A DNA stretch of 46,939 bases from Deltaproteobacteria bacterium (GTDB lineage Bacteria; Desulfobacterota; GWC2-55-46; DRME01), in contig DRME01000048.1 in assembly GCA_011375175.1 (NCBI GenBank), positions 1-46,939 of the forward strand, read 5' to 3'. How positions within the stretch are numbered: the stretch's first letter is position 1; the number at the start of each line of letters is the position of its first letter. Below, piece after piece: positions 1 through 46,939 of this stretch. Under the pieces are notes generated by a model. That model did no database searches. It was given only the letters and a program-made list of their open reading frames with translations, and was not told the origin of the DNA. The position numbers and the translations under genes are program-made.

Positions 1-153
1 ACCCCCTTCAAAGACTTTTAATTCCCTGCGGTTCATCCCGATTTTGCTTGCAAAATCGGGATGAACCGCAGGGCGTTAAAAGTTTTTGGAGGGAGTCTGA
101 GGGAACCTTTTTACAAAAAGGTTCCCTCAGTGCAATAAATCAGAGTTTCCCTA
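1..153. repeat. Modular palindromic element, copy R1 (cut by window edge)
   Basis: This copy is truncated on the left by the window boundary and lies in reverse orientation. Positions 24-73 form a perfect 24-bp inverted repeat with a 2-nt loop; its arm starts CCCTGCGG. Positions 97-130 form a second perfect 16-bp hairpin with arm CTGAGGGAACCTTTTT. The right terminus (AAATCAGAGTTTCC) recurs, inverted, at the other end of complete copies. It ends 17 bases before the GAF gene start. Confidence 0.93.
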
Positions 154-170
154 ACACGATGAGGTAACCG

Positions 171-884
171 ATGGATTCCATTATCAGGTGCAGACAGTGC
201 GGCAGCCAGATGGAGCACGAGCGTATCGACGACTTCAAGGTCAAGTTCTACTGCAAGTGCGGCTTCTCCGAGTTCAGGCCCGCCCCGGGAACGAGCAAGG
301 TCGTGAACCCCCACTACTCCAGGGACAGCCTCCTGCCGCTCAAGTTCGACCACATGGGCAGATTCGTCGTCGAGGTGGAGCGGGCCGACCGCGAACAGCT
401 CGAGCTCATCACCATAGACGAGATAAGCATGCTCGCCTCGTCGGACTACGACCTCGACGAGGTGCTGAAGAAAGTGGCCGAGAAGACGGCCCGCAGGCTC
501 GGCATGGACATCTGCTCCATATACCTCTGGGACGGCGAACACCTCGTGCTCCGCGGCACCTACGGCCTCGCCCAAGAGGCGGTGGGCAAGGCGAGGCTAA
601 AACCGGGAGAGGGCATAACCGGCACGGCCGTGCTCGAAAAGAAACCCCAGCTCGTGGCCGACGTCTCCAGGGACCCCCGCTACCACTACTTCCCGGAGAC
701 CAGGGAGGAGCAGTACAGGATCAAGACCATGTACAGCTACCCCATATTCTCGGGCGACGAGCCCTACGGCGTGCTCAACGTCCAGACCGTCGAGACGAGA
801 AGGCTCAAAGACGACGAGCTCGGCTTCGTGGCCATCGTGGCCAACCTCATCCTCGGCGCCGTCAAGATGAGAAAGAAGGGTTGA
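171..884 (+). CDS. Zinc-ribbon plus GAF domain sensor protein
   Basis: This 237-residue protein starts with a short zinc-ribbon-like segment with cysteines at 7, 10, 28 and 30. A GAF domain follows at roughly residues 80-232, seen in the helix rich in KKVAEKTARRLG, the GEGITGTAV turn and the YPIFSGDEPYGVLNVQ strand. The GAF part resembles the N-terminal GAF of PtsP-type and other signalling proteins. No output domain is fused, so it may act as a cytoplasmic small-molecule sensor with a separate partner. The start is supported by GAGGT at 161-165. It lies directly downstream of palindromic element R1, which could contribute to its 5' leader. The ligand is unknown. Confidence 0.85.
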   Translation: MDSIIRCRQCGSQMEHERIDDFKVKFYCKCGFSEFRPAPGTSKVVNPHYSRDSLLPLKFDHMGRFVVEVERADREQLELITIDEISMLASSDYDLDEVLKKVAEKTARRLGMDICSIYLWDGEHLVLRGTYGLAQEAVGKARLKPGEGITGTAVLEKKPQLVADVSRDPRYHYFPETREEQYRIKTMYSYPIFSGDEPYGVLNVQTVETRRLKDDELGFVAIVANLILGAVKMRKKG

Positions 885-925
885 GGCGCGGCGACGCCTT
901 TTCCCTTTTCTCCGCCGCCCCCGGA

Positions 926-934
926 TGGTATAAT
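926..934 (+). promoter_or_regulatory. Extended -10 promoter for the lipoprotein gene
   Basis: TGGTATAAT at 926-934 is a perfect -10 hexamer with the TG extension. No good -35 box is visible about 17 bases upstream, as is typical of extended -10 promoters. Transcription would start near 941, about 35 bases before the ATG at 976. Confidence 0.6.
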
Positions 935-975
935 CACTGGAATTCGTATTCAACGAGGAGGAAAGGACCGCAGTC

Positions 976-1590
976 ATGAGATTCAGATACCTTGTCGCAG
1001 CAGCAATCACCATCGCGCTCGCCGCCTCGGCCTGCACGAGCGAGAAGGCCAGGGAGGCCGCCGTCGAAGAGGAGACCGTCTCCGGCACGGCGTCCATGGA
1101 GGGCCTGCCCGAGGGGCATCCCTCCATAGACACGAGCGTCGACCCCGGCGCCGCTTCGTTCATGAAGCAGGCCGGAAAGGACGGCAGCGTCTCCCACTCG
1201 GGGCTGAGGACCCAGAAGCAAGTGCGGGTATCGGACGAGATAAAGGCCAAGTGGAAGGAAGTGACGCTCGAGGTCTTCGACACGAGCGACAGCACCAAGG
1301 CGGTGAGCAAGTTCCGCATCGGCTCGAAGACCAAGATCGACGGCGGCGAGCTCGTCGTCGAGGCCTTCGTCCCCGACTACTCCATCTACGACGACCACAT
1401 AGGGTCCAAGTCGGCGGAGCTCGTAAACCCGGCCGTGCTCGTCGAGCTCTTCGAGGACGGAAAGAGCGTGGCCAAGGGGTGGGTCTTCAACAAGTACCCG
1501 GAATTCAACTCCTTCAAGCACGATAAACTGCGCATCTCGCTCGTAGCTCCCGGCGGCGAACGCCAGCAGCGGCAGGAAGCTTCCGAATAG
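976..1590 (+). CDS. Small lipoprotein, DUF2155-like
   Basis: A 204-residue exported lipoprotein. The N-terminus has a signal peptide ending in the lipobox ASAC, with the modified cysteine near residue 19. An acidic linker follows, then a compact domain (about residues 85-195) with the pattern of an outer strand, a basic GSKTKIDGG turn and a GWVFNKYPEFNSF segment. I recall a similar pattern in DUF2155 proteins of deltaproteobacteria, but the assignment is tentative. It would be anchored in the inner or outer membrane on the periplasmic side. The start is supported by GAGGAGG at 956-962, and it has its own promoter upstream. The hairpin after the stop suggests a single-gene transcript. Function is not known. 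Confidence 0.75.
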   Translation: MRFRYLVAAAITIALAASACTSEKAREAAVEEETVSGTASMEGLPEGHPSIDTSVDPGAASFMKQAGKDGSVSHSGLRTQKQVRVSDEIKAKWKEVTLEVFDTSDSTKAVSKFRIGSKTKIDGGELVVEAFVPDYSIYDDHIGSKSAELVNPAVLVELFEDGKSVAKGWVFNKYPEFNSFKHDKLRISLVAPGGERQQRQEASE

Positions 1591-1594
1591 TCGC

Positions 1595-1634
1595 CGGGGA
1601 GGGCGGGGCCTTGCGGTCCCCGCCCTCCTCCCCC
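1595..1634 (+). terminator. GC-rich hairpin after the lipoprotein gene
   Basis: A strong stem pairs GGGGAGGGCGGGG (1596-1608) with the complementary C-rich arm ending near 1634, with one bulge. The tail is C-rich rather than T-rich, so the terminator call rests on stem strength and position just after the stop. Confidence 0.5.
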
Positions 1635-1666
1635 TTCAGAAAGACACTCCCGCGGCAAAACTTCTA

Positions 1667-1695: not shown

Positions 1696-1702
1696 CTCCG
1701 GC

Positions 1703-3018: not shown

Positions 3019-5655
3019 TCAAGGCTCGGCGCCCGACAGTCTCGCCGCCCGGTCGGAGAGAGAGGGGTCGCGCCCGCCCTCTATCACTATGCCGAGCAGC
3101 TTGCATCCTTCGTCGCCGCCCTCTTCGCAGTCGGTGATGATATCTTCCAGTATGGCAAGCAGTGTCTTGCACCGCCCCTCCTCTCCCGAGGCGCAGGCCG
3201 AGGCCATCTCTCCCATGACGATGCCGAAGTAGAGGCAGCCCCGCCCCTCGCCCATGACACAGGCCTTGATGTAGTCGTCGTTGGCCCTCTCCATGGCTCC
3301 CTGCCTGTAGTAGGCGTCGCCCCTGCCCAGGTAGGCCGCGGCGCTGGACGGATCGAGGGTGATGGCCTTGGTGAAGTCGCCGATGGCCATGTCGTAGCGG
3401 CCGCTGGCGTAGAAGGCGATGCCGCTGTTGAGGTAGGCGGCTGCGTAGCCCGGCACCAGGCCGATGGCCGTGTTGTAGTCGTCGATGGCGGCCTCGGTGC
3501 GTCCGCTCTTGAAGCGGGCGTAGCCGCGGTGGTTGTATGCGGCGGCCAGCCTCTCGGCCGCCGAGAGGGCCTCTTCGAGCGGCACGGAGCCGGCGTGCCC
3601 GGCGGAGGGCATGTCGAGACCGTCGTCGAGACGCCGCAGGTCGAAGCCGGCGGTGTCGTCGGGGGCCGAATATAGTGCTATGGCCCGGTCGAAATCGGCG
3701 ACCGCCCGGTCGTAGAGGCCCTTGAGGCTCAGGGCAAGCCCCCTGCCGAAGTGGTAGTCCGGGTTGTCCGCGTCCAGTTCCAGGGCCGCCTCGAAGTCCG
3801 CCGCGGCGTCGTCGTAGCGGCCCAGGGCGGTGTGGACCTGGCCGAGCCTTGCAAGGGCCCTGGCGTTGCGCGGGTCGAGTTCGACGGCCCTGCGCAGGTC
3901 GTCCACGGCCTTCTCCATCTCCCCCTTTTTCTGGAGGAGCACGCCACGGTAGTAGTAGGCGTCGGCGGAGGCTGCGTCCAGTTCGATGGCCCGGTCGAAG
4001 TCGGCGAGGGCGTCGTCGTAGCGGCCCAGGCGGGTGTAGGCGTCGCCGCGCGAGCCGTAGGCCGGGGCGAAGCCGGGGTCGGCGGCGATGGCGCGGTCGA
4101 AATCCGAGACGGCCCGTTCGTACTGGCCCCTGAGGCTGAAGATGACGCCGCGGCCGTGGAAGGATAGGGCGTCTGTCCCGTCCAGCTCGATGGCCCTGTT
4201 GTAATCGAGCAGCGCCCGGTCGTAGAAACCGCCGGCCGCCAGGGCCGATCCCCGCAGCGCATAGCCCGATGCGTCGTCGGGCGCGATGAAGACCACGTCT
4301 GTAAAGTCCTCGACCGCGTCGTCGTAGCGGCCCATGCGCATATAGGCCACCCCCCGTGCGCGGAAGGCGCCGCCGTCAGCCCCCTCACCCAGCTCTATGG
4401 CGGTGGTCAGGTCCGCAACGGCCCGCTCGTACCGTTCGGTCTCGAGGAAGAGGAGCCCCCGGCCCAGGTAGCTTTCGGCCCTCCCGCCGTCGAGCTCCAC
4501 GGCCCGGTCATAGCCCTCCAGCGCCCGCTCGTACTCCCCCGCGGCCCGAAGGGCGTCGGCCAGGCCCGCATGGGCCTCGGCCAGCGTCGGCGCGAGCTCC
4601 ACGGCGCGCTCGAGGGCCTCGAGCGCCTCGTCCACGCGCCCCAGGCCGAGAAGCGCCCTGCCCCGGCCAGACCAGGCCGCCCCGGACCCGCCGTCGAGCT
4701 CTATGGCCCGGTCGAAGTCCTCGAGGGCGCGCGCGGCGTCGCCGAGGGCAAGGCGGACCCGCCCTCTCAGCTCGCGGCAGCGGCTGTCCCCGCCGTCGAG
4801 CTCCACGGCCCGGTCGAGGTCATCGAGGGCGTAGTCGGGCTCGCCCGCGCCCAGGTGCGCCGCGCCGCGCAGGACGAGGGCCGCCGCAAGGTCCCCGTCG
4901 AGCTCGATGGCCGCGGTGAGGTCGTCTGCGGCCTGGTAGTAGTCGGCGCCGTCGATGAGGGTGGCGGCCCGCCCCACGTATGGCCAGGCCCAGCGGGGGT
5001 CGAGCTCGATGGCCGTGCCGTAAGCCGCCATCGCCTCGTCGCCGCGGCCGGAGAGGGCCGCCACCAGGGCCTTCTCGAGCCAGAGCGCCGCCTGCAGGCG
5101 CCTTCTCGCCGTCTCGACGGCCTCTATCATCTCGCGCCGGCGCCCGGCGTCGTCCTCGGCCTCGAGCCGCCCGTCGAGCCCGTCGGCGGCCCTGTCGAGC
5201 TCTTCGAAGGCGGAGACCACGGCGCCGTACTCCTCGGCGCGGTAGCCCCGGGCCGCCGCCCTCGCCGCAGCGAGGAAGACGTCCCTGTGAAGACGGACCT
5301 TGAGGACGACGGTGAAGGCGAAGTTGTCGTCGATGATCTCGCGCCTCTTCTCGTCGACCCTGAAGTCGAGGGCCGCCAGGGCGGCGGCCTCGGCCTCGGC
5401 GTCGGTGAGCGCAATGCCGGACGCAGCGGCAAGACGCCCCAGTTCCGGGGCGGCGCGCCTTACGGCCTCGATGCGCGCCTTCCACATGGCCCGGCTCTCG
5501 GCCTCCGAGAGCGTCTCGCCGGCTCCGAGAAGGTGGGAGCTCGTGACGAGCCGCTCGAAGGCGGCGCTGCGCTGCGGCGTGAGAACGACGAGCAAAAAAG
5601 CCGCGGCGGCGGCCGCCACGGCCGCCGCCCCAGGTTTGTCGACCCCCAAGATCAT
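3019..5655 (-). CDS. Very long tetratricopeptide repeat protein, probably exported
   Basis: An 878-residue protein. After an N-terminal hydrophobic stretch (about residues 8-28, ending QRSAA) that looks like a signal peptide or anchor, there is a roughly 170-residue helical region. Then come at least 17 consecutive TPR units with the pattern LG..DEAL.DFDRAIELD, many nearly identical to each other. The last 60 residues carry several cysteines (CVMGEGRGCLYFG, CASGEEGRCKTLL) and resemble Sel1-like tail repeats. The ATG at 5655 is preferred over an upstream in-frame ATG because GGAGGAAGAG precedes it and the hydrophobic segment then sits at the N-terminus. It probably scaffolds protein assemblies in the periplasm; partners are unknown. 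Repeat similarity suggests recent internal duplication. Confidence 0.85.
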   Translation of the reverse strand: MILGVDKPGAAAVAAAAAAFLLVVLTPQRSAAFERLVTSSHLLGAGETLSEAESRAMWKARIEAVRRAAPELGRLAAASGIALTDAEAEAAALAALDFRVDEKRREIIDDNFAFTVVLKVRLHRDVFLAAARAAARGYRAEEYGAVVSAFEELDRAADGLDGRLEAEDDAGRRREMIEAVETARRRLQAALWLEKALVAALSGRGDEAMAAYGTAIELDPRWAWPYVGRAATLIDGADYYQAADDLTAAIELDGDLAAALVLRGAAHLGAGEPDYALDDLDRAVELDGGDSRCRELRGRVRLALGDAARALEDFDRAIELDGGSGAAWSGRGRALLGLGRVDEALEALERAVELAPTLAEAHAGLADALRAAGEYERALEGYDRAVELDGGRAESYLGRGLLFLETERYERAVADLTTAIELGEGADGGAFRARGVAYMRMGRYDDAVEDFTDVVFIAPDDASGYALRGSALAAGGFYDRALLDYNRAIELDGTDALSFHGRGVIFSLRGQYERAVSDFDRAIAADPGFAPAYGSRGDAYTRLGRYDDALADFDRAIELDAASADAYYYRGVLLQKKGEMEKAVDDLRRAVELDPRNARALARLGQVHTALGRYDDAAADFEAALELDADNPDYHFGRGLALSLKGLYDRAVADFDRAIALYSAPDDTAGFDLRRLDDGLDMPSAGHAGSVPLEEALSAAERLAAAYNHRGYARFKSGRTEAAIDDYNTAIGLVPGYAAAYLNSGIAFYASGRYDMAIGDFTKAITLDPSSAAAYLGRGDAYYRQGAMERANDDYIKACVMGEGRGCLYFGIVMGEMASACASGEEGRCKTLLAILEDIITDCEEGGDEGCKLLGIVIEGGRDPSLSDRAARLSGAEP

Positions 5656-5754
5656 CGTCTCTTCCTCCGGGACCGTCTCATACCACCCGCAGCCGCCCGC
5701 AACCGCCCGCGAGCAGGGCCACGGCCCCCGATGGCGCCACGGCACACCGGTCGC

Positions 5755-14000: not shown

Positions 14001-14141
14001 TCTTGCCTGCTTGTTCCCTCAAAAAGCAGCCACGGAAGACGGGGCCGCCGGCCGCTTCGTGCCGCTGCGACGCACACAGGCCCGACAAGATTTACAGTTT
14101 TTTCTTTGCTTACTTTCTTTTTTCCCAAAAAAGAAAGTAAG
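14001..14141. repeat. Type B repeat, single unit, with stop-abutting hairpin
   Basis: The unit carries a core containing CAGCCACGG, GACGGGGCC, GGCCGCTTCGTGCC and TTTTTTCTTTG. It ends in a 15-bp hairpin, CTTACTTTCTTTTTT with its complement, at 14109-14141. The hairpin ends exactly one base before the GGDEF gene stop codon (14142-14144 on the minus strand). A two-unit version sits in the same position at 22 kb. Confidence 0.85.
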
Positions 14142-15710
14142 TCAGGAGCAGATGCGGTTGCGGCCGGCTTTCTTGGCGTCGTAAAGGCACATATCGGCCT
14201 GTTTTATGAGCTCCATGGGACTGCGGCCGTCGTCGGGGAAGGTGGCGACACCGCCGCTCACGGTTATGCGGCGGTTGGGCATGCGGTAGGAGGCGATCTC
14301 CTTGAGCAGGCGGTTGGCGAAGGCCACGGCGCCTTTCTTCTCCATGTCGTCGATTATGATGCAGAACTCCTCGCCTCCGAAGCGGCCTACCGTGTCGGTG
14401 CTGCGCACCGTCCTGTTGAGGAGACGGGCGAGGGCCTTGAGGACCTTGTTGCCCTCGAGGTGGCCGTAGGTGTCGTTGTAGGACTTGAAGTGGTCGATGT
14501 CGAGCATGATGATCGAAAAGGAGCGTTCGTTGCGGGAGCATTTCTTCGTCTCCTTGTTGATCTCGTCCATGATGTAGCGGTGATTGTAGAGCCCGGTGAG
14601 GCCGTCGGTTATGCTGAGGCGCCGCATCTCCTCGATGGACTTTACGCGCTCGATGGTGAGGGCCGCGTAGATGGTGAGGAGGGTGAAGAGCGAGATGACC
14701 TCGGCCTTGAAGTCGCGGACCACGAAGTCGTTGACGTAGATGATGCCCACTATGCGTCCCTCGATGGTGAGCGGAGCGGCAAGGAGCGAGCGCACCCCCT
14801 CCTCGAGGAGCACGGGGTTTAAAGCGGGGAACTCGCGCAGGTCTTTTATGATGGTGGGTGAGGTCTGGGTCAGTATCTTGTCGGTAAGCCCTCCGCGTCT
14901 TATGTCCCAGCGGTCGACCTTCTGGAACTCGGCGCTGAAGCCCTTGGACACGACCATCACCATGTTCTCGTTGCGCTCGTCGAAGAGGGCGAGCGAGCCG
15001 GCCGGGGTGGCCGTGAGGCGGGTGGCGTAGTCGATTATGGCGTAGCCCACGTCGTTAAGGCTGTCTATGTTCTCGATGACGAGGCCGAGATGGTACAGGC
15101 TCTCGTGGTCCTTGAGCATGCGCTGGCGCTCTTCCATCCTGCGCTGGCGCTCGTCGACGAGCTGCCAGAGGAGCCGGGCCGAGACACCGCCCATGAGCTC
15201 CGTGTCGGGCCGCTTCATCTTCTTGATGAACTCCCTCACGGAGCTCGAGCCCGTGACGTTCACGATTATGTCGACGTCGGTGGTGACGGCCTCGGCGAGG
15301 TCGTGATAGACGGGGATGCCCAGTTTCCTGGCGATGGGGATACCGCGTGCCATGGGGTTCTCGTCGACGACCCACGAAATCTTTATGGTCGAGTCTTCCT
15401 TGAAGATTTCGAGGATGGCGGACCCGCCCTTGCCGCAGCCGACGATGCCGAGCTTCACGGTGTCGGGCTTGCCGTCCTGCTGGACATCGCTGTCCCGGCC
15501 GTCGATGAGGCCGTAGTAGAGGCCCTTCTCGACGAGCCCGCTTCTGGTGGATGTTCCCATCTTCTCCTTGAGCCCCCTGATGAGCCTTGCGACCCGATAG
15601 GGCGTTTCACCCATGAGACGGGATATCTCGCGGTTGGTCACGCCCGCGTGTATGTACTTGAGTATCTCGTATTCCTGGAGCGAAAGGTGCGGCCTGTTAT
15701 GTTCGTTCAC
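14142..15710 (-). CDS. HTH - Rossmann - GAF - GGDEF fusion, putative diguanylate cyclase
   Basis: A 522-residue protein with an unusual domain order. Residues about 10-55 form a LuxR-type helix-turn-helix (LSLQEYEILKYIHAG, NREISRLMG). About 85-200 form a nucleotide-binding Rossmann-like domain (VKLGIVGCGKGGSAILEIF) resembling NAD-dependent dehydrogenase N-domains. A GAF domain follows (about 235-360) and a GGDEF domain (about 375-520). The active-site loop is GGEEF, and an RSTD inhibitory site lies 5 residues upstream, so it should make and sense c-di-GMP. The GTG at 15710 is chosen because GGAG lies nearby and the HTH then starts close to the N-terminus; an ATG at 15767 is an alternative. 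A type B hairpin directly follows the stop. Confidence 0.85.
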   Translation of the reverse strand: MNEHNRPHLSLQEYEILKYIHAGVTNREISRLMGETPYRVARLIRGLKEKMGTSTRSGLVEKGLYYGLIDGRDSDVQQDGKPDTVKLGIVGCGKGGSAILEIFKEDSTIKISWVVDENPMARGIPIARKLGIPVYHDLAEAVTTDVDIIVNVTGSSSVREFIKKMKRPDTELMGGVSARLLWQLVDERQRRMEERQRMLKDHESLYHLGLVIENIDSLNDVGYAIIDYATRLTATPAGSLALFDERNENMVMVVSKGFSAEFQKVDRWDIRRGGLTDKILTQTSPTIIKDLREFPALNPVLLEEGVRSLLAAPLTIEGRIVGIIYVNDFVVRDFKAEVISLFTLLTIYAALTIERVKSIEEMRRLSITDGLTGLYNHRYIMDEINKETKKCSRNERSFSIIMLDIDHFKSYNDTYGHLEGNKVLKALARLLNRTVRSTDTVGRFGGEEFCIIIDDMEKKGAVAFANRLLKEIASYRMPNRRITVSGGVATFPDDGRSPMELIKQADMCLYDAKKAGRNRICS

Positions 15711-19890: not shown

Positions 19891-20095
19891 GAAACTGAGG
19901 GAACCTTTTCGTAAAAGGGTCACAGACCCCCTTCAAAGACTTTAAATACGAGTTGGTTTCCCCCTGTTTTGCCTGGCAAAACAGGGGGAAACCAACTCGC
20001 GTTAAAAGGTTTTGGAGGGAGTCTGAGGGAACCGGGGGCCTGTGACCCTTATTACGAAAAGGTTCCCTCGGTGCAATAAATCAGAGTTTCCTTAA
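19891..20095. repeat. Modular palindromic element, copy R2
   Basis: This reverse-orientation copy carries the second type of central palindrome: a perfect 25-bp inverted repeat with a single-base centre at 19949-19999 (arm CGAGTTGGTTTCCCCC...). The right hairpin (20022-20069) has an inserted GTGACC-containing segment. The left end is partly deleted. The right terminus AATCAGAGTTTCCTTAA matches other copies. It fills most of the 425-base gap between two minus-strand genes. Confidence 0.92.
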
Positions 20096-20245: not shown

Positions 20246-21973
20246 CTACGGCGCCGCCGTCACGCCGCTCACCCTGAAGTTGAAGTCGTAGTTGAGCACG
20301 TCGGACCAGTCGAGCCCCCTCGTGGTGGAGCGCGTATCGTCGGCCGTGCCGTAGGGGTTGCCCGGTATGTAGAACCAGTTCACGATGGCGTCCTCGCTGC
20401 GCCTCGGTATTATCCAGTACCTCCCCGGCCCGAGCAGCGGACGCTCCGAGGGGTCCTTGGCGAAGGTGAAGTCGAACCACTTGTAGCCGCCGTAGTATGA
20501 AACGGTGTCGAGGCTCAGCGGATAGCTTCGCACGCCCTGAAGTCCGGGCTTTCCGCCGTCGTCCTCGACTATGTCGATCCACAGGCTTCCGAGCCGGCCG
20601 CCGAACTTGTGGAGCGCAAGCGAGACCCTGTCGAGCAGGATGGGCTCTTCGATCTCGAAGGCCTGGGCCAGCGAGTGGTCCTTTGTGAGGTACTCGGCCG
20701 TCTCCTTGTCGAGCGTTCTGTATCCCGTCTCCGAGTCCTTGAGCTTCACGTAGAGGTCCAGGAGCGACGGAAAGTCCATGTTGCCGAACTCGACGGGCGT
20801 TCCCGCGGGCCGCTTTGGCCGCTTCACCGCAGGCGGCCTGCGGCGGGGCCGCGGCCTTTCGGCCGGACCGCCGGCGGCGGCCTCGAGCTCGGTGGTCACA
20901 ATGTAGCTATCGGGAGAAGCGGTCCTCTTCTTTAGGCTTATCTCTATCGTGTCGCTCCTGTAGTCGGCCGAGACCTCCTCGCTGAAGGGAGGGAGCACGG
21001 GCGAGGCCCGCCAGGAGTCGTTTATGTCCATGGAGTCCAGTCCCACGGTCTGCTTTATGTGGCGCGGGCTCACGAAGAGGTGACTCTGCTGGGTGTCGTA
21101 GGCGAGCCAGCCGAGGTCCGGGTACCAGACCTCTATCCAGGCGTGGCCCCCCTGCCCTATGCTCTGAACGAGCGAGCCCTTTTCGAGCGGCACCTTCCAT
21201 GTCTTTCCGAGGGAGAGCCCCCCCACCATGCGGGCGGGAACGCCCACGGAGCGCAGGAGCGCCATGGAGAGGTGCGAAAAGTTCTGGCAGTTGCCGTGGC
21301 CCTTGCGCAGCGTCCAGAGGGCGTCGTAGGCCGGTATGGGGGTCTTGTAGCGGATGTTGTCGACCACCCAGTTGAGAAGCGCCATGACGGCGGCCTCCTC
21401 GCTCCCGGCGCCGTCGGTGAGCCTTCGGGCGAGAGCGCCTATCTCTTCGGCATCGCTCTGTACGAGTTTCGTAGGCGCGAGAAAGGTCCTTACATCGGCG
21501 GGGATGCGGGCCGCGTCGAGCGGAAAGGGAGCCGAGCTCGATAGGGGGGCGAGCCCGATGCGAAGCTCCGTCATGAAACGACCGGTCACGCGCACCTCGC
21601 CCTTCACGTCGCGCCAGGTGGCGACGGTGAAGGAGTTGCCGAAACGGTCCGTCTCGGTCTCGACGCTCAGGGGCCTGGGACTGAAGTCGAGCCTGTAGTC
21701 CCCGGTGCGCTGCCTGACGGTGCGGCTGTCGAAGGACGCGGGGTTGGCGAAGCGGAAGACGAGCTTTCTTAGCCCGCCGCCGGGCACGGCGAAGGTGCGC
21801 TCCTGCGTGACCTCCACGGTCGTGCGCATCCCGCCCTCGAGCACGAGCGTGTCGGCCCGCACGGCGGCGGCCAAAAGAAGGACAGCCGCCGCGGCCTCGG
21901 CGAGCCGCCGCGCCGGGGAAACTTTTTGAAAAAAGTTTCCCCGGACCCCTTCAAAAACTTTCAATGCCTCCAC
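20246..21973 (-). CDS. Secreted transglutaminase-like protease-fold protein
   Basis: A protein of about 575 residues with an export signal (AEAAAAVLLLAAAVRA). A beta-rich N-terminal domain precedes a transglutaminase core at about residues 215-330. The triad is visible as the cysteine of GHGNCQNFSHL, the histidine of GGHAWIEVW and the aspartate of LAYDTQQSH. The last 190 residues are beta-rich and may bind ligands (LLDRVSLALHKFGGRLGSLWIDIVEDDGG). Bacterial members cleave or crosslink peptides at the envelope; the substrate here is unknown. The GTG at 21973 is chosen because GGAGG lies 6 bases before it. The codons just after it derive from a palindromic element fragment (R3), so the N-terminus has been built partly from repeat sequence. 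Confidence 0.82.
   Translation of the reverse strand: MEALKVFEGVRGNFFQKVSPARRLAEAAAAVLLLAAAVRADTLVLEGGMRTTVEVTQERTFAVPGGGLRKLVFRFANPASFDSRTVRQRTGDYRLDFSPRPLSVETETDRFGNSFTVATWRDVKGEVRVTGRFMTELRIGLAPLSSSAPFPLDAARIPADVRTFLAPTKLVQSDAEEIGALARRLTDGAGSEEAAVMALLNWVVDNIRYKTPIPAYDALWTLRKGHGNCQNFSHLSMALLRSVGVPARMVGGLSLGKTWKVPLEKGSLVQSIGQGGHAWIEVWYPDLGWLAYDTQQSHLFVSPRHIKQTVGLDSMDINDSWRASPVLPPFSEEVSADYRSDTIEISLKKRTASPDSYIVTTELEAAAGGPAERPRPRRRPPAVKRPKRPAGTPVEFGNMDFPSLLDLYVKLKDSETGYRTLDKETAEYLTKDHSLAQAFEIEEPILLDRVSLALHKFGGRLGSLWIDIVEDDGGKPGLQGVRSYPLSLDTVSYYGGYKWFDFTFAKDPSERPLLGPGRYWIIPRRSEDAIVNWFYIPGNPYGTADDTRSTTRGLDWSDVLNYDFNFRVSGVTAAP
21915..21965. repeat. Palindromic element fragment R3 inside a coding start
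   Basis: A perfect 13-bp hairpin, GGGGAAACTTTTT with its complement, occupies 21915-21942. It is followed by GGACCCCTTCAAAAACTTTCAA, the linker sequence seen in full copies. The fragment lies within the first codons of the transglutaminase reading frame. Confidence 0.8.
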
Positions 21974-22008: not shown

Positions 22009-22261
22009 GCCTGCTCTCTTCTTTCCCTCAAGAAAGCAGCCACGGGAGACGGGGACAGCGGCCGCTTCGCGCCACTGCGACGCTCACAAGCCCAACAATA
22101 TCTACACTTTTTTCCTTTGCCTGCTTTCTTCTTTCCCTCAAGAAAGCAGCCACGGGAGACAGGGCCAGCGGCCGCTTCGTGTCACCACGACGCTCACAAG
22201 CCCAACAAGATATACGGTTTTTTCTTTGCTTACTTTCTTTTTTTCCAAAAAAGAAAGTAAG
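22009..22261. repeat. Type B repeat, two tandem units, with stop-abutting hairpin
   Basis: Two tandem units of about 110 bases each begin with a hairpin (CTGCTTTCTT and AAGAAAGCAG flanking CTTTCCCTC in the second unit). Each continues with CAGCCACGGGAGAC, GGCCGCTTCG, ACGCTCACAAGCCCAACAA and a T tract. The array ends in a hairpin (22229-22261, arm CTTACTTTCTTTTTT) that abuts the cyclase stop codon at 22262-22264. The same final hairpin abuts the GGDEF stop at 14.1 kb. Confidence 0.88.
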
Positions 22262-30446: not shown

Positions 30447-30724
30447 TTAAGGAAGCTCCGATTAATTACCCTGGGGGAAACTTTCTGTAGAAGGGCCATA
30501 GGGCCACGTTTCCCCCAGACCCATCGTATGTTATTCGGATCTTCGGCTGTACCGGGGGGTTCGGGCCGCAAAGGCGTAAAAACCCCGCCTGGCGCGGGCC
30601 GAACCCCCGGTACAGCCTCCCCGAGGCAACCGGCGCGGGCAGGACGCCCCCTTCAATTACGCTGGGGGAACCGTGGGCCATAGCCCCACGGTTCCCTCAG
30701 TGCAACAAATCAGAGTTTCCTTAA
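30447..30724. repeat. Modular palindromic element, copy R4, with GC-rich module
   Basis: The element is bounded by TTAAGGAA (30447-30454) and TTCCTTAA (30717-30724), a perfect 8-bp inverted pair. The pairing extends imperfectly inwards (GCTCCGATT / AATCAGAGT). Its centre is not the CCCTGCGG or CGAGTTGG palindrome. It is a GC-rich inverted repeat with arm GGCTGTACCGG (30545 onwards; right arm ending 30617) around an inner segment at 30565-30598. Outer hairpins CTGGGGGAAAC... and GGGGGAACCGTGGG... flank it. Confidence 0.88.
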
Positions 30725-35048: not shown

Positions 35049-35427
35049 GGAAAAGCTCCGATCAATTACCCTGGGGGAAACTTTCTGTAGAAGGGCCTCA
35101 GGCCCACGTTTCCCCCGGACCCATCGTATGTTATTCGGGTCTTCGGCTGTACCGGGGGTTCGGCCCGCGCCAGGCGGGATTTTTTACGCCTTTGCGGACC
35201 GAACCCCCGGCACAGCCTCCCCAGAGGCAACCGCCGCGGGCAGGACGCCCCCTTCAATTACGCTAGGGGAAACTTTCTGTAGAAAGTTTCCCCCAGACCC
35301 CCTTCAAAGACTTTTAATTCCCTGCGGTTTATCCCGATTTTGCAAGCAAAATCGGGATAAACCGCAGGGCGTTAAAAGTTTTTGGAGGGAGTCTGAGGGA
35401 ACCTTTTTACAAAAAGGTTCCCTCAGT
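35049..35427. repeat. Composite palindromic element, copy R6
   Basis: Two modules are joined. The first (35049-35260) is the GC-rich type of R4, with arms GGCTGTACCGGGGG (35145-35163) and its complement (35199-35217). The second is a type-1 element containing a perfect 24-bp palindrome (35320-35369) and the CTGAGGGAACC hairpin (35393-35426). The inner segment at 35164-35198 is the reverse complement of the one in R4. It separates yebC from ruvC. Confidence 0.9.
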
Positions 35428-36204: not shown

Positions 36205-36426
36205 AAGGAAACTCTGATTTATTGTACTGAGGGAACCTTTTTGTAAAAGGGTCATAGACCCACGGTTCCCTCGGACTCCCTCCAAAAACTTTTAACGCGA
36301 GTTGGTTTCCCCCTGTTTTGCTTGGCAAAACAGGGGGAAACCAACTCGTATTGAAAGTCTTTGAAGGGGGTCTGGGGGAAACTTTCTACAGAAAGTTTCC
36401 CCCAGGGTAATGAGTCGGGGTTTCAC
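36205..36426. repeat. Modular palindromic element, copy R7
   Basis: A forward-orientation copy beginning AAGGAAACTCTGATTT. Its left hairpin holds an inserted GGGTCATAGACCC stem. The centre is the perfect 25-bp palindrome at 36298-36348, with centre TTG rather than CTG. The right hairpin CTGGGGGAAACTTTCT... follows. The right end is diverged (GAGTCGGGGTTTCAC). It lies between the NtrC-family gene and yebC. Confidence 0.92.
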
Positions 36427-38419: not shown

Positions 38420-38476
38420 GTCTTTTTTCCCGCGGCCCGCTCTGCGGCGCGGCGGCCGGCGAAAGTCTATTGTTGT

Positions 38477-38745
38477 GGAAGCTCTGATTAATTACCCTGA
38501 GGGAACCTTTTTGTAAGAAGGTTCCCTCAGACTCCCTCCAAAAACTTTTAACGCGAGTTGGTTTCCCCCTGTTTTGCCTGGCAAAACAGGGGGAAACCAA
38601 CTCGTATTAAAAGTCTTTGAAGGGGGTCTGGGGGAAACTTTCTACAGAAAGTTTCCCCCAGCGTAATGAAGGGGGTCCGGGGGAAACGTGGGTCTATGGC
38701 CCTTCTACAGAAAGTTTCCCCCGGTGCAATGAATCAGAGTTTCCT
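38477..38745. repeat. Modular palindromic element, copy R8, with duplicated right hairpin
   Basis: A forward copy. It begins GGAAGCTCTGATTAATTACC and has a left hairpin GAGGGAACCTTTTTG..., the perfect 25-bp palindrome at 38554-38604, and a right hairpin CTGGGGGAAACTTTCT. A second version of the right hairpin with an inserted GGGTCTATGGCCC segment follows. It ends GAATCAGAGTTTCC. The two ends form an inverted pair. Confidence 0.92.
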
Positions 38746-38773
38746 TGTAATTTGCCCTCCGTGATGTTAAGAT
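38745..38773 (+). promoter_or_regulatory. Possible lipA promoter whose -35 overlaps the element end
   Basis: TTGTAA (38745-38750) and TAAGAT (38768-38773) are 17 bases apart. The -35 begins in the terminal TTTCCTT of element R8. Both boxes are moderate matches. Confidence 0.4.
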
Positions 38774-41028: not shown

Positions 41029-42348
41029 ATGGAGACGATAAACGCGGGTCTCATAGGGTTCGGCACGGTCGGGACCGGGGTCTACAGGGTCCTGACCGAG
41101 AACGCCGACGTTATCGAGAAGAAGCTTGGCTGCAGGCTGAGGCTAAAGAAGATAGCCGACAGGGACGTAGAGAGGGACAGGGGCGTCAAGGTGGACCCGG
41201 CGCTGCTCACCGCCGACCCCTCCGAGGTGATAAACGACCCCGGCATCTCCATCGTCATAGAGCTCATCGGCGGCACCGGCGCGGCGCGGGAGTTCATCGT
41301 CGAGGCGCTGGCCAAGGGCAAGCACGTGGTGACGGCCAACAAGGCGCTGCTCTCCACCCACGGCCGCGAGATATTCGAGACGGCCCGCTCCATGGGGCTC
41401 GACATCGGCTTCGAGGCGAGCGTGGGCGGCGGCATACCGGTCATAAAGGCGCTTCGCGAGGGGCTTGCCGCCAATCACGTAGAGAGCATCTGCGGCATCA
41501 TAAACGGTACGGCCAATTACATACTGAGCCGCATGACGAGCGACGGCGGCCGCTTCGAGGACGTGCTCGCCGAGGCCCAGGCCAGGGGATACGCCGAGGC
41601 CGACCCCACCTACGACGTGGAGGGGATCGACACGGCCCACAAGCTCGCAATCCTCATCAACATCGCCTACGGCACCTACGTGGAGCTCGACTCCATATAC
41701 ACCGAGGGCATATCGCGCATAACGCCGCTGGACATAGCGTTCGCCGCCGAGTTCGGCTACAGGGTCAAGCTCCTGGCCATAGCGAAGAGCGAGGACGGGG
41801 AGATCGAGGCGAGGGTCCATCCCACGATGATACCGGCGACCCATCCGCTCGCCTCGGTGGACGGCGCCTTCAACGCCGTCCACATAGAGGGCGACGCCGT
41901 GGGCCCGGTCATGCTCTACGGCCTCGGCGCGGGCATGATGCCCACGGCGAGCGCCGTCGTCGCCGACGTGGTGGACATCGCAAGGAACATGAGAAACGGC
42001 GTCGGCCGGCGCCTCGAGCCGCTGTCGTACATGCACGGAGCCGTGAGGGAGGCGGCCGTAAGGCCCATGGACGAGCTCGACATACCGTGGTATCTGCGCT
42101 TCTCGGCGCTGGACCGCCCCGGCGTGCTCTCCCGCATAGCGGGCGTGCTCGGCGCGCACAACATAAGCATCTCCTCGGTCATACAGAAGGGCCGCCAGGC
42201 TGGAGAGGCCGTGCCGCTCGTCATACTGACCCACCACGCAAAGGAACGGCAGATGCGGGCCGCCCTCGCCGAGATAGAGACGCTCGACGTGGTGCGCGAC
42301 AGGCCGGCATATATCAGGATAGAGGAGAACCTCGGTGCATCTCGATAG
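41029..42348 (+). CDS. hom: Homoserine dehydrogenase
   Basis: This 439-residue enzyme reduces aspartate semialdehyde to homoserine with NAD(P)H. The Rossmann motif GFGTVGTGVYR is at about 10-20. The catalytic segment contains GGGIPVIKALREGLAAN and the INGTANYILSRM signature. The C-terminal ACT domain (about 355-430; LDRPGVLSRIAGVLGAHNISISSVIQ) allows threonine feedback. GGAAGG lies before the ATG. Its last 14 bases overlap the thrC start, indicating coupled translation. Confidence 0.97.
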   Translation: METINAGLIGFGTVGTGVYRVLTENADVIEKKLGCRLRLKKIADRDVERDRGVKVDPALLTADPSEVINDPGISIVIELIGGTGAAREFIVEALAKGKHVVTANKALLSTHGREIFETARSMGLDIGFEASVGGGIPVIKALREGLAANHVESICGIINGTANYILSRMTSDGGRFEDVLAEAQARGYAEADPTYDVEGIDTAHKLAILINIAYGTYVELDSIYTEGISRITPLDIAFAAEFGYRVKLLAIAKSEDGEIEARVHPTMIPATHPLASVDGAFNAVHIEGDAVGPVMLYGLGAGMMPTASAVVADVVDIARNMRNGVGRRLEPLSYMHGAVREAAVRPMDELDIPWYLRFSALDRPGVLSRIAGVLGAHNISISSVIQKGRQAGEAVPLVILTHHAKERQMRAALAEIETLDVVRDRPAYIRIEENLGASR

Positions 42349-43405
42349 GAAAGGCGTCTGGGAAGGCGTAATCAGGGAGTTCAGGGGCTTTCTGCCCGAC
42401 ATATCGGACGAGGCGGTGGTGACGCTGCGCGAGGGCAACACGCCGCTTGTGGAGTCCCACAACCTGGGGGACATGGTCGGCGACATAAGGCTGCTCTTCA
42501 AGTACGAGGGCCTCAACCCCACGGGCTCGTTCAAGGACCGGGGCATGACCCTGGCCGTCTCCATGGCGAGGCAGGCGGGCTCGGAGGCCGTCATCTGCGC
42601 CTCCACGGGCAACACCTCGGCCTCGGCCGCCGCCTACGCCGCCAAGGCGGGCATGAGGGCCTACGTGCTCGTCCCAGAGGGGAGGATCGCCGTGGGAAAG
42701 CTCTCGCAGGCCATGATCCACGGGGCCGTGGTAATGGAGGTGAGCGGGAGCTTCGACGACGCCCTCGACATCGTGAAGGAGATAACGCGCAGCCACCCGG
42801 TCACCATGGTCAACTCGCTCAACCCCTACAGGATAGAAGGGCAGAAGACGGCGGCCTTCGAGGTCTGCGAGCACCTGGGACACCCCCCCACCTTCCACTT
42901 CCTCCCCGTGGGCAACGCCGGCAACATAACGGCCTACTGGAAGGGCTACAGGGAGTACAGGGACAAGGACATCACATCGAGCCTGCCCAAGATGATGGGC
43001 TTCCAGGCCGAGGGCGCGGCCCCCATAGTGCTGGGGCACGTGGTCGAGGACCCGCAGACCATCGCCACGGCCATACGCATAGGCAATCCGGCGAGCTGGA
43101 AAGAGGCCGAGGCGGCGAGGGACGAGTCGGGAGGGATCATCGACATGGTGAGCGACGAACAGATCATCGAGGCCTACAGGCTGCTCGCATCGCGCGAGGG
43201 CATCTTCTGCGAGCCCGCCTCGGCGGCGAGCCTTGCGGGACTAATCAAGCTCAAGAAGGAAGGCGTGGTGAGCGACGGCGACACCGTGGTCTGCACCCTC
43301 ACGGGCCACGGCCTCAAGGACCCGGCCACGGCCATCGACTCGGCGGTGAAGCCGGTAAAGGTCTCGCCCAGCGCCGACGAGGTCCTCAGGGTCATGGGGT
43401 TCTGA
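42335..43405 (+). CDS. thrC: Threonine synthase
   Basis: ThrC converts O-phosphohomoserine to threonine with PLP. The 356-residue protein has the PLP lysine in NPTGSFKDRGM (K near residue 68), the CASTGNTSASAAAYAAKAG phosphate-site stretch and the GNAGNITAYWKGY segment. It starts with GTG inside the end of hom. Its stop codon TGA is part of the left hairpin of palindromic element R9. The pathway step between Hom and ThrC, homoserine kinase, is not encoded by a ThrB gene here; the ApgM-like gene downstream may supply it. Confidence 0.96.
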   Translation: MHLDRKGVWEGVIREFRGFLPDISDEAVVTLREGNTPLVESHNLGDMVGDIRLLFKYEGLNPTGSFKDRGMTLAVSMARQAGSEAVICASTGNTSASAAAYAAKAGMRAYVLVPEGRIAVGKLSQAMIHGAVVMEVSGSFDDALDIVKEITRSHPVTMVNSLNPYRIEGQKTAAFEVCEHLGHPPTFHFLPVGNAGNITAYWKGYREYRDKDITSSLPKMMGFQAEGAAPIVLGHVVEDPQTIATAIRIGNPASWKEAEAARDESGGIIDMVSDEQIIEAYRLLASREGIFCEPASAASLAGLIKLKKEGVVSDGDTVVCTLTGHGLKDPATAIDSAVKPVKVSPSADEVLRVMGF

Positions 43406-43604
43406 GGGAACCTTTTTGTAAAAAGGTTCCCTCAGACTCCCTCCAAAAACTTTTAACGCGAGTTGGTTTCCCCCTGTTTTGCCTGGCAAAACAGGGGGAA
43501 ACCAACTCGTATTAAAAGTCTTTGAAGGGGGTCTGGGGGAAGCGTGGGCCTATGGCCCTTCTACAGAAAGTTTCCCCCAGGTAAGTAATGAATCAGAGCT
43601 TCCT
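43402..43604. repeat. Modular palindromic element, copy R9, within the threonine operon
   Basis: A forward copy starting with hairpin CTGAGGGAACCTTTTTG at the thrC stop. It contains the perfect 25-bp palindrome at 43459-43509 and a right hairpin with the GGGCCTATGGCCC insert. It ends GAATCAGAGCTTCC. The outer left terminus is missing, replaced by the thrC coding end. It separates thrC from the ApgM-family gene. Confidence 0.93.
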
Positions 43605-44923: not shown

Positions 44924-45442
44924 TCAGCGGCCCGATGAGGCCCACAGTCCCAGCCCCGCGCTGCGCGCCCCGCTCTCGACGGCGGCGTAGCGGCCGGCCC
45001 GTTCGAGCCCGCAGGGCGGTATGACGAGCGTGCGCGCAAGGCCGCGGCCGAGCAGCTCGGCGCCCACGTCGAGACCGTCGACAGAGACCCAGCCCAGAAG
45101 CCTTCCGTACTTGTCCCGCGGCTCGTCGCGGCAGACTTGGACGAGCACCTCGCCGCGCCCCACGAGCTCGATGTTGGCGCGTCTTGCCGCGTTGCAGAAG
45201 GGCTCGTCCCGCTCCGGCGTGTCTATGCCCACGTAGCGGAGCCTGCGGCCGTCATCGAGCTCCACCGTGTCGCCGTCGATGACCCATGCCACCCTGGCCG
45301 TGAAGACGTAAGGCGGCGGTTCCGTCCCGCCCCCCGGCCCGCCGCCCCTCCAAAACCCGGCGAAGACGGCCAGGGCGGCGACCGAGACCGTAAGAAGCGA
45401 CCTCAGAGCGCGCCGTCGCGCCGGCAAAACCGGACCGGCCAC
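44924..45442 (-). CDS. Staphylococcal nuclease-like (SNase) thermonuclease
   Basis: A 172-residue nuclease with an N-terminal membrane segment (about 13-30) and an SNase OB-fold domain (about 46-165). Active-site features are RVAWVIDGDTVEL, RYVGIDTPERDEP and RDKYGRLLGWV, containing the expected arginines and acidic residues. It would act outside the cytoplasmic membrane, degrading DNA or RNA with calcium. The start codon is GTG, only 4 bases after the HAMP gene stop, so the two are cotranscribed. Confidence 0.85.
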   Translation of the reverse strand: MAGPVLPARRRALRSLLTVSVAALAVFAGFWRGGGPGGGTEPPPYVFTARVAWVIDGDTVELDDGRRLRYVGIDTPERDEPFCNAARRANIELVGRGEVLVQVCRDEPRDKYGRLLGWVSVDGLDVGAELLGRGLARTLVIPPCGLERAGRYAAVESGARSAGLGLWASSGR

Positions 45443-45446
45443 GGCC

Positions 45447-45998
45447 CTACCACTTCTCCCTGAAGCGGTGGATCATCTCCTGTATCTCGCTCACCTCTCT
45501 TTTCAGGCACTCCATATCGCAGTCCTTCCTGGCGAGCTCCCTTTGCAGCATGGCAAGCCTCGCGGCCAGCGCGCCGTGCAGCTCGTTGAAGGAGCGGCTC
45601 ATCTCTTCGGCCTGCTCGATGAAGGCATTGAGATTGCTCACGAAGTTGCGCACATGGATGTCGTCCCTGCCGCGCACATGAAGCCGCCTCGTAAGTTCTC
45701 CCGAGCTTATGAGCCTCATCTCGTACTCGAGCCGCTTGAAGGGCCCTATGAGCCTGTGGGAGAAGAAGACGGCCAGGAAGACGACGATGGCCATGTAGCC
45801 GAGGATGAGGAATATCCCCAGGGCCGGAGTCTGGACCCCGTAGTAGGCGGCCAGGGCGCGGGAGAGCGACTGGAGGAAGATGGCCCCCAGCATGGCCATT
45901 ATGACGAGCAGCGCGATGGTGAGCTGCAGTTCCCTGGAGACGAAGAAACGCTGCCGTACGCTCTTTTTCCTCTTTTCCGGTCCCTTTTCAGCGCTCAT
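45447..45998 (-). CDS. Two-TM HAMP domain protein
   Basis: A 183-residue protein with a positively charged start, two membrane helices (about 27-47 and 58-80), a HAMP-like linker (HRLIGPFKRLEYEMRLISSGELTRRLHVRGRDD) and a C-terminal coiled coil. There is no kinase, methyl-accepting or cyclase output domain. It resembles short HAMP proteins of deltaproteobacteria of unknown role that may pair with separate signalling partners. The ATG at 45998 is chosen over one 39 codons upstream because the upstream part looks non-coding. Confidence 0.78.
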   Translation of the reverse strand: MSAEKGPEKRKKSVRQRFFVSRELQLTIALLVIMAMLGAIFLQSLSRALAAYYGVQTPALGIFLILGYMAIVVFLAVFFSHRLIGPFKRLEYEMRLISSGELTRRLHVRGRDDIHVRNFVSNLNAFIEQAEEMSRSFNELHGALAARLAMLQRELARKDCDMECLKREVSEIQEMIHRFREKW

Positions 45999-46217
45999 GA
46001 CCACCCGTCCCGCAACATCCCCCCTCCTTCGACTATAAAGCCTCGACGGCCTCTTGTCAAGGCGCCCTGCGCCGAGGCGAAACACCTTGACTCTCGCCAT
46101 CGATGCATCTATCATACAAGAGGCAGGGACCGGGAGAGAGGCTTAACAGGGGCCGCCGAGGCTCCATTCCATCGTGCCGCACGACCGGGGGCGGCATCCC
46201 AGAGGAGCTTCCGTCTC

Positions 46218-46418
46218 ATGAAAGAGAAGATCGTGAGGATAGGGGATAAGAAGGAAGGCGTGGCGCTGCCCGAGGACTACCTGCGCTTCCTCGAGCTCAT
46301 CCCCGGCGCCGAGGTGGAGATAAGGCTCGACAAGAAGAGGCGCGTCATCGAGATAAGCCCCACGGGGACCGAGGACTTCCTCGAGCACTTCAAGGACTCC
46401 ATGGAATCTATGGCATGA
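46218..46418 (+). CDS. Small AbrB/MazE-like swapped-hairpin protein
   Basis: A 66-residue protein: KIVRIGDKKEGVALPEDYLRFL and IPGAEVEIRLDKKRRVIEISP form the looped-hinge beta pattern of AbrB/SpoVT/MazE DNA-binding proteins. A short acidic helix follows at the C-terminus. AGAGGAG at 46201-46207 precedes the ATG. Its stop overlaps the cupin start (ATGA). It may regulate its own operon. No toxin of a known family follows, so it need not be an antitoxin. Confidence 0.72.
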   Translation: MKEKIVRIGDKKEGVALPEDYLRFLELIPGAEVEIRLDKKRRVIEISPTGTEDFLEHFKDSMESMA

Positions 46419-46756
46419 AGATCTACAAGCTGCCCCAGCTCACCGAGGCATCGAGTGACGACATCTGCCGCCTGGCCGCCGACAAACTGGGGGCCTCGGC
46501 CCTCTACCTGCTCTACGGCAGGCTCCACCCTGGAGGCCCGCCGCATACCCTGGCCCCGGGCAAGGGCCGCGAAGAGATATTCTACCTCGTGAAAGGGACG
46601 ATAAGCCTCCAGACCGGCAAGGGCTCCTTCCCCATAAACGCCGGCGAATGCTTCCACATGGGCGAAGACGACTCGATGAGCATAGACAACCGCAGCGACG
46701 AAGAAGCCGTCTTCATCATATGCGGCGCCGCCACCGATGCCGGAAGTCCTGATTAA
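46415..46756 (+). CDS. Cupin domain protein
   Basis: A 113-residue single-domain cupin. Two conserved motifs are visible: PGGPPHTLAPGKGREEIFYLVKG (first motif, with histidine and glutamate metal ligands) and NAGECFHMGEDDSMSIDNRSDEE (second motif, with a histidine). Such proteins bind a metal and often sense or modify small molecules. It overlaps the AbrB-like gene and is coupled to it. The last codons and stop (AGTCCTGATTAA) come from the left terminus of palindromic element R10, so the ancestral C-terminus may have been altered by the element's arrival. Confidence 0.85.
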   Translation: MKIYKLPQLTEASSDDICRLAADKLGASALYLLYGRLHPGGPPHTLAPGKGREEIFYLVKGTISLQTGKGSFPINAGECFHMGEDDSMSIDNRSDEEAVFIICGAATDAGSPD

Positions 46757-46939
46757 TTACACTGAGGGAACCTTTTTGTAAAAAGGTTCCCTCAGACTCC
46801 CTCCAAAAACTTTTAACGCCCTGCGGATTATCCCGATTTTGCAAGCAAAATCGGGATAATCCGCAGGGAATTAAAAGTCTTTGAAGGGGGTCTGGGGGAA
46901 ACGTGGGCCTATGGCCCTTCTACAGAAAGTTTCCCCCAG
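46742..46939. repeat. Modular palindromic element, copy R10 (cut by window edge)
   Basis: A forward copy that begins GGAAGTCCTGATTAATTACAC and supplies the cupin stop codon. It holds the hairpin CTGAGGGAACCTTTTTG..., the perfect 24-bp palindrome at 46819-46868 (arm CCCTGCGGATTATCCCG) and the right hairpin with GGGCCTATGGCCC inserted. The window ends inside it. Confidence 0.93.

Follow-up and report, generated by a model that had tools for sequence, protein, structure and literature searches.

The contig DRME01000048.1 of a Deltaproteobacteria bacterium (assembly GCA_011375175.1), 46,939 nucleotides long and here called the window, carries about ten copies of a palindromic element. The element is a nested inverted repeat. 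Terminal repeats of ~20 bp enclose an inverted pair of diverged 52-nt half-modules, and these enclose an exchangeable central palindrome. Probably, it is a palindrome of three layers in which the frame of a miniature inverted-repeat transposable element (MITE) holds a pair of triplex-capable half-modules and a central hairpin, and which is unstable through fold-back. Repeat searches in both orientations and a search for the terminus located the copies of the window, and their parts were confirmed on the sequence itself. The source genome has a size of 2.49 Mb and is 98.6% complete in 138 contigs.

Architecture of the element and mirror symmetry of the half-modules

Outer hairpins, linkers, central palindromes and a third, GC-rich module are all present as an earlier, sequence-only reading of the window had described them. 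That reading did not recognise the left and right hairpins as homologous half-modules, in each of which a tail mirrors its own hairpin arm. The right (R) half aligns with the reverse complement of the left (L) half as one family, and both are diverged copies of a 52-nt unit. The half-module is the new part of the element. It is composed of a tail (AAAGTCTTTGAAGGGGG), a spacer and a hairpin (GGGGGAAACTTTC..GAAAGTTTCCCCC), with the consensus AAAGTCTTTGAAGGGGGTTTGGGGGAAACTTTCTACAGAAAGNTTCCCCCAA. Read backwards, the tail matches the 5' arm of the hairpin, first in a purine part (GGGGGAA) and then in a pyrimidine part (TTTCT).

The mirror register comprises 12 position pairs; one tail base and two arm bases are omitted at the purine/pyrimidine step. 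From 826 aligned hits, 279 with at most one gap and at most three inserted bases were retained, which yielded 111 unique units (20 from the source genome, 79 from its order, 7 from distant genomes, 3 from Nitrospinota-titled and 2 from Ruminococcus-titled sequences). The mirror identity of tail and arm is 0.922 for these units, compared with a mean of 0.798 and a maximum of 0.829 when the tails are shuffled 1000 times, a statistic that ignores kinship. Within the L-type units the identity is 0.877 (shuffled maximum 0.861) and within the R-type units 0.956 (shuffled maximum 0.939). Moving the register by 1 to 3 positions gives values of 0.26–0.60. The three Nitrospinota-titled units have an identity of 0.833, all other groups 0.916 to 0.958.

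The varying pairs change jointly. Among the 111 units, one pair is G/G in 63 and A/A in 44, a second G/G in 73 and A/A in 35, and a third C/C in 59 and T/T in 50. Tail position 11, a purine, is not coordinated (A/A 59, G/A 51) and position 12 is coordinated in part (A/A 87, A/G 21, G/G 3). A purine 5' arm implies the triads G.G:C and A.A:T, a purine 3' arm the triads T.A:T and C.G:C. These triads obey both rules on strand direction in triple helices. Such mirror covariation is the pattern expected of an intrastrand triplex with a switch of strands.

The palindrome types were counted on sampled copies of the source genome. Of these, 53 carry the CGAGTTGG type and 33 the CCCTGCGG type (among the latter one mislabelled CGA-type); two palindromes are unassigned. 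The palindromes are perfect over 24-bp arms in 77 of the 88 copies. Third-type modules number 20 among the sampled copies. The two palindromes had been called unrelated. They are indeed two types but not cleanly unrelated, as 24-bp arms and the apex TTTTGC are common to both. Variants of the CGAGTTGG type (CGAGTTGG, CGACTTGG and CGAGGTGG) differ in both arms together. Likewise, CCCTGCGG is followed by ATCATCCC, ATCACCCC, TTCATCCC or TTTATCCC in variants whose arms change together. For one full copy of the window (R7, 36207–36425), a four-way junction is predicted as the fold of the single-stranded DNA (z = -13.1 relative to shuffles). In two related metagenome-assembled genomes (MAGs), unrelated A/T-rich loops of 50–80 nt are present within a perfect central hairpin (L092, L107, L123, L130 and L133). 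These varied loops look as if each copy captured a different sequence.

Terminal repeats, target duplications and transposases

The 13-base terminus AATCAGAGTTTCC occurs eight times in the window (at most two mismatches; 0.49 expected) and has 117 exact matches in the source genome, with none for the backward control. A tag spanning the tail and the start of the hairpin (TTTGRAGGGGGTCTGGGGG, at most two mismatches) covers both half-module types and has 295 + 281 = 576 matches genome-wide, compared with 92 + 77 for its backward control. This control is high because the half-module has a mirror symmetry of its own. In the window and in stretches of the source genome chosen for holding copies, every one of the 183 tag matches and of the 72 backward matches falls in a half-module hit. 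The 576 half-unit tags thus correspond to roughly 250–300 elements.

Target duplications were evaluated for 46 elements with both termini; one of these has two possible left ends and is counted twice, once with and once without a 4-bp duplication. Exact 4-bp flank repeats are found for 23 of the 46 (mean 2.91 and maximum 10 in 2000 shuffles). Flank repeats of 2, 3, 5 and 6 bp are found for 4, 1, 1 and 0 elements, respectively (shuffle means 2.17, 1.42, 0.13 and 0.02). Seventeen of the 23 four-bp duplications are not self-complementary and therefore are not an extension of the terminal repeat. The most frequent left flanks are TTAA (7), TTAG (5) and CTAA (4). Of the features that define MITEs, terminal inverted repeats and a target duplication of fixed length (4 bp) are present. 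The element behaves as a MITE in the source genome and transposition explains its spread there. A non-autonomous mobile element had been proposed from the inverted ends, and the 4-bp target duplications support this proposal. The element is also short, non-coding and of high copy number, like other bacterial MITEs. It differs from them in that its interior module also exists outside the frame, that identical outer stems enclose different interiors at one locus, and that no parent transposase was found in searches for three families.

Presumably, a DDE-type transposase that cut a 4-bp T/A-rich target mobilised the element ends (GGAARCTCTGATTWATTRC), in the past at any rate. MITEs derived from the IS5 family have ends starting with GG and YTAR targets. 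The ends GGAARCTCTGATT and targets such as TTAA, TTAG and CTAA resemble these. Unlike what an IS5-family source would suggest, DDE_Tnp_1 (PF01609) is missing in 38 of the 39 genomes of the order, the source genome included, and with its single occurrence was dismissed as a parent. MITE-like repeats are abundant in the genomes without this domain. An IS1182-type parent (PF13751) was rejected as well, as it is present in one of the 39 genomes, which is not the source genome. Two longer stretches of the source genome that run from terminus to terminus (L165 and L166) were considered as parent elements; both hold further copies. In L166 (3.9 kb), no transposase was found in the five open reading frames (ORFs) scanned; the sole Pfam match is a queuosine synthesis gene.

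An IS200/IS605-like or REP-type (repetitive extragenic palindrome) transposase had been suggested, and the searches do not support it. Y1_Tnp (PF01797) is absent from the source genome and present in 20 of the 39 genomes of the order, and no half-module lies within ~1.5 kb of any of 20 Y1 loci examined, out of 34 places listed in relatives. It is hardly credible that the element is a REP/REPIN mobilised by RAYT, a Y1 tyrosine transposase. Inverted hairpin pairs, intergenic location, many copies and the Y1_Tnp genes of the order would agree with this, but the source genome lacks the domain, the examined Y1 loci lack the half-module and the target duplications are 4 bp in length. The half-modules resemble REP, BIME and REPIN in being intergenic hairpin units in inverted pairs. 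Unlike in REP/REPIN, the hairpins point outward and the tails inward. The unit also starts with AAAGT and not with GTAG or CGTC, the unit-end tags given in the available part of PMC3733652.

A plain selfish MITE, whose fold-back symmetry comes only from palindrome self-correction and has no triplex role, is improbable. The terminal repeats, the 4-bp duplications and the high copy number fit this explanation, and joint arm changes can come from quasipalindrome correction. However, distant families and MAGs titled as other phyla have the half-module too, there without these termini. Furthermore, tail and arm mirror each other and covary, and neither duplication nor palindrome correction produces a symmetry of this kind.

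Orthologous loci and the copies of the window

Sixty-eight loci were collected in one related genus (G009, G015, G022, G027 and G035). Eighteen orthologous groups of this genus are syntenic to the left and to the right of the element; four pairs with synteny on a single side were excluded. Orientation can be scored in at least two species in 11 groups, and in six of these the core is inverted between the same flanks in different species. The printed sequences of all six were inspected. At one nearly identical locus, the element differs only in the loop, which reads GGAAGCT in one case and AGCTTCC, its reverse complement, in the other. In the central hairpin, the frame TTCCTGAG-NNN-ACCCCC is often conserved, and the bases in its middle vary among orthologs with compensating changes. 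Hairpin cassettes of ~75 nt can replace the inner hairpin arms, cassette X always in the left half (13/13 copies) and cassette Y always in the right half (6/6). Both cassettes are present in one ortholog and absent in another. They are imperfect hairpins at matching positions (X in L195, L207, L211, L213, L215, L216, L222, L223, L228, L229, L231, L235 and L241; Y in L226, L228, L229, L231, L235 and L241). At another locus (L232 and L139), an insertion of ~140 bp lies inside the central palindrome and carries hairpins that we take to be IS200/IS605-like ends.

The interior can be replaced completely. At the L188 locus, G009 has the half-module pair, G015 and G027 have the outer stem only with a short middle, and in G035 these outer stems enclose another repeat, which has a GTACGCC hairpin. 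Neither the pair, the outer stem nor the other repeat is present at this locus in G022, G020 and G026. The outer stem CAGGSTGCTGAAAA has 408 matches in G009 with at most two mismatches, compared with 28 for the control. Of 20 stem loci in G009, 18 bear the other repeat (98–133 bp as delimited by a script), one bears a 250-bp element and one has no pair. The other repeat is abundant in G009 (L366–L385) and has the outer stem CAGGCTGCTGAAAAA and a central GGCGTAC..GTACGCC hairpin. Swapping is seen directly, because the core is inverted in 6 of 11 groups and one site holds three different interiors. Thus, the cassette swapping and recombination among copies proposed from the window alone are borne out at orthologous loci by inversions, cassettes and a replaced interior.

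Two further explanations were considered. A programmed invertible switch with a dedicated site-specific recombinase would account for the differing core orientation, but is very improbable. Inversion occurs at several nested levels, including the palindrome loops and the third module, together with deletions and with changes in the arms; this points to events between arms that are not programmed. An assembly artefact has a negligible probability. The source genome is a MAG of 138 contigs and contigs do end inside copies; on the other hand, copies are also found inside contigs and in relatives assembled as a single contig (G009 and G308), with locus-specific flanks and target duplications.

The three layers may be unstable for the same reason. 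Around the observed terminal repeats and target duplications, the outer layer would owe its mobility to the DDE-type transposase. In the middle layer, the single strand with the G-rich tail might fold onto itself as an intrastrand triple helix, and the inner layer would be the central hairpin, both arms of which change together. Folded single-stranded inverted repeats may lead to template switching or arm-to-arm recombination at each level. Such arm-to-arm events would invert the enclosed sequence, rewrite one arm from the other and let interiors be replaced. Judging from the products, folding and arm-to-arm events in nested inverted repeats would account together for the flips of core and loop, the paired changes of arms and the exchanged interiors.

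Within the window, copies R7 and R8 are full and carry the CGAGTTGG-type palindrome on the plus strand. R7 (36207–36425) consists of the left terminus (36207–36219), the L half (36227–36292), the central palindrome (36298–36348), the R half (36354–36404) and a degenerate right terminus. R8 (38477–38744) has an extra half-module (38667–38722) and is flanked by the duplicated sequence TTGT (38473–38476 and 38745–38748), which is included in the target-duplication count. Two further plus-strand copies of this type, R2 (19895–20091, right terminus 20079–20091) and R9 (43402–43603), have no left terminus. The first bases of R9 supply the stop codon of a predicted gene (42335–43405). The CCCTGCGG-type palindrome is found in R1, R6 and R10. 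R1 (1–150, minus strand) is cut by the contig start and contains an L half-module (79–130) and a terminal repeat that ends at 150. R6 (35266–35426, minus strand) is an inverted half-module pair around the palindrome in which both usual termini are missing, and R10 (46742–46939, plus strand) is cut by the contig end. The assignment of the palindromes to these seven copies agrees with the sequence-only reading. The statement that the copies share their outer parts holds overall, with the exceptions of R2, R9 and R6, of the two copies cut by contig ends and of the lone half-module R3.

The third, GC-rich central module is present at 30519–30640 and 35120–35242. It had been assigned to R4 and to the first half of R6. 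The former is correct: R4 (30451–30720, plus strand) carries this module and has TTAA on both sides (30447–30450 and 30721–30724). The supposed first half of R6 is a separate truncated copy of the third type, R5 (35051–35240, plus strand), which abuts R6. R4 and R5 have their outer sequence in common, with flanks in the same orientation, and the loop of the third module is inverted between them. R3 (21915–21961, minus strand) is a lone half-module without a partner.

Two other kinds of repeats are present in the window. A predicted protein (3019–5745) has many repeats spaced 102 nt (34 codons) apart and is probably a tetratricopeptide repeat protein. A direct repeat of 120 nt occurs in three copies (14023–14142, 22033–22152 and 22143–22262), with 70% and 88% likeness to the reference copy.

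Gene ends, other lineages and known repeats

Of the 68 loci in the related genus, 63 can be scored for their position relative to genes called by a simple script, and removal of four duplicates leaves 59 distinct loci, some of which hold only part of the element. Thirty-nine lie between co-directional genes (20 on the plus and 19 on the minus strand), 14 between convergent and one between divergent genes. Four are inside predicted ORFs and one is of no clear class. The locus flanks are 89% coding. Survival just after stop codons would explain the intergenic position.

Beyond the source genome, the whole element as a query matches 23 of the 39 genomes of the order, mostly over half-modules only. 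Under strict filters (E ≤ 1e-4), a half-module covariance model hits 24 of 297 phylum genomes, of which four belong to the order and 20 to other families. Certain families have one or two unrelated hairpins inside the same inverted pair (L269, L270, L272–L274 and L279). Lone units are the rule elsewhere: all 28 scored half-modules in loci of family f48 and all 17 in Ruminococcus-titled loci have no partner within 260 nt. Two f48 genomes have 72 and 27 matches, three Ruminococcus-titled MAGs, all named Hm464, have 34, 13 and 41, and three Nitrospinota- or Nitrospinales-titled MAGs have 4, 6 and 34; these counts exceed the number of units because some units match on both strands. A pattern scan of a collection of species genomes gave 84 stretches, of which 68 are titled Deltaproteobacteria, 5 Ruminococcus, 3 Nitrospinota or Nitrospinales, 1 Burkholderiaceae and 7 unnamed bacteria. 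For the Ruminococcus-titled hits mis-binning is possible, but it would need to have recurred in three MAGs. A near-identical copy is found in contigs titled Burkholderiaceae (BURC) and BACT1 (L094 and L115, with the prefixes CAJPFZ and CAJPGC between them), which looks like mis-binning.

Plasmids gave no match to the element, and viral contigs gave no exact match to a 29-base core. At the Rfam gathering score, only two tRNAs are found in the window. Six related loci have sub-threshold Rfam matches only (microRNA models, a small nucleolar RNA and Dictyoglomi-1 with 36 bits at a gathering score of 150), which were attributed to the long perfect hairpins. Readings of the modules as attC-like, hepatitis delta virus-like or hammerhead-like were considered and dropped. 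A literature search, with most subscription papers outside its coverage, found no published description of this sequence family. Hairpins of a similar kind may occur in Desulfovibrio genomes. The accessible parts of two repeat surveys have no entry for Desulfovibrio, Geobacter or triplexes (PMC2267715) and none for triplexes, Nitrospin or Ruminococc (PMC12306157, with one Desulfo- table line).

In the other lineages, the half-module is often within ~30 nt of a stop codon. The hairpin of single units faces a gene 3' end in 22 of 25 cases in f48 (median 24 nt from the stop codon) and in 12 of 17 Ruminococcus-titled cases (median 20 nt). The tail side does so in 16 of 26 and 7 of 16, respectively. 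For paired units, the hairpin faces a gene 3' end in 9 of 12 Nitrospinota-titled cases (median 8 nt) and in 7 of 11 cases in family f24 (median 12 nt; 14 of 15 f24 units are paired). In f71 and f30 the ratio is 2/3. Other lineages have the half-module without the MITE frame, often alone and with its hairpin mostly toward the gene end.

These orientations, together with the near absence of elements between divergent genes (1/59), would suit a signal that acts at the RNA level at gene ends. The half-module would then be a terminator or a 3'-end protector, pairs would be bidirectional terminators, and the triplex symmetry would be an RNA-level feature or irrelevant. This explanation is rather unlikely. 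A T run longer than three is missing from the first 10 nt behind the hairpin (gene-sense strand) in 110 of the 111 unique units, which makes a canonical intrinsic terminator unlikely. RNA-level selection is not supported either, since G.T wobbles of the hairpin show no gene-sense excess (14 on the gene-sense strand and 26 on the other). The related motif of E. coli has neither promoter nor terminator activity according to an earlier study cited in PMC4666352, as far as the available excerpts go. Furthermore, an RNA signal leaves the mirror covariation unexplained.

The closest described elements, judging from the accessible parts of PMC4666352 (Holder et al. 2015, ITxF database), to which all following comparisons with E. 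coli refer, are the PIT/TM triplex repeats. TM_ECO has 23 copies in E. coli MG1655, with five inverted A+B pairs among them, and the consensus 5'-CCCTCNCCCN3-6GGGNGAGGGN3GGGNGAGGG-3'. As in the half-module, a hairpin with short loops is combined with a third strand that mirrors the purine arm, and the units are repeated and intergenic. Close pairs are inverted and always combine A and B types, as L and R do here. TM motifs are also linked to local instability and share a tie to local rearrangement with the half-module. By-eye comparison with the published pattern shows that the consensus AAAGTCTTTGAAGGGGGTTTGGGGGAAACTTTCTACAGAAAGNTTCCCCCAA differs in sequence and strand order. The third strand of the half-module lies 5' of the hairpin and runs on into a pyrimidine part, which corresponds to an alternate-strand geometry. 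The half-module mostly lies close to a gene 3' end, toward which its hairpin points; TM_ECO, in contrast, was more often found upstream of ORFs, with no trend in distance or strand. TM_ECO is not reported with transposons, phages or plasmids, whereas the half-module is carried inside a MITE frame.

Several points weigh against the nested palindrome with triplex-capable halves. An exact target duplication is missing in 23 of the 46 copies, and no parent transposase was found in the source genome among PF01797, PF13751 and PF01609, the three families searched; a MAG may lack the gene. Some inversions could be assembly errors in short-read MAGs. The mirror register was picked after inspection of the sequences, the units are related, so the shuffles are not a calibrated test, and the split into L and R types may reflect few events. 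The spread is patchy: the half-module model matches 24 of the 297 phylum genomes, and the three genomes listed as same class give no match. The TM triplexes of E. coli can be formed in vitro, yet were not observed in vivo. The balance of wobbles and the inactivity of the E. coli motif count here as well.

Despite these points, the nested reading is the one preferred, and what keeps the half-module constant between lineages may above all be a role at gene ends or selection on the triplex. A broader proposal is possible but more tentative. According to it, the half-module is a gene-end element, placed shortly after stop codons, with an alternate-strand triplex code that is kept across several titled phyla; a MITE would have captured it in one order, where it became a nested palindrome prone to flipping. 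The triplex repeats of E. coli have long been known without a function or a sign of triplex selection, as far as the excerpts of PMC4666352 report. If the present interpretation is true, the half-module would provide the first covariation evidence of selection on intrastrand triplex formation in bacteria within the literature searched. The third strand changes together with the hairpin in a family that spans several lineages, so the triplex is testable: the mirror can be broken without breaking the hairpin. Related genomes in which the element is flipped, swapped or missing make the instability of such motifs readable event by event, and the place behind stop codons offers a concrete function to test.

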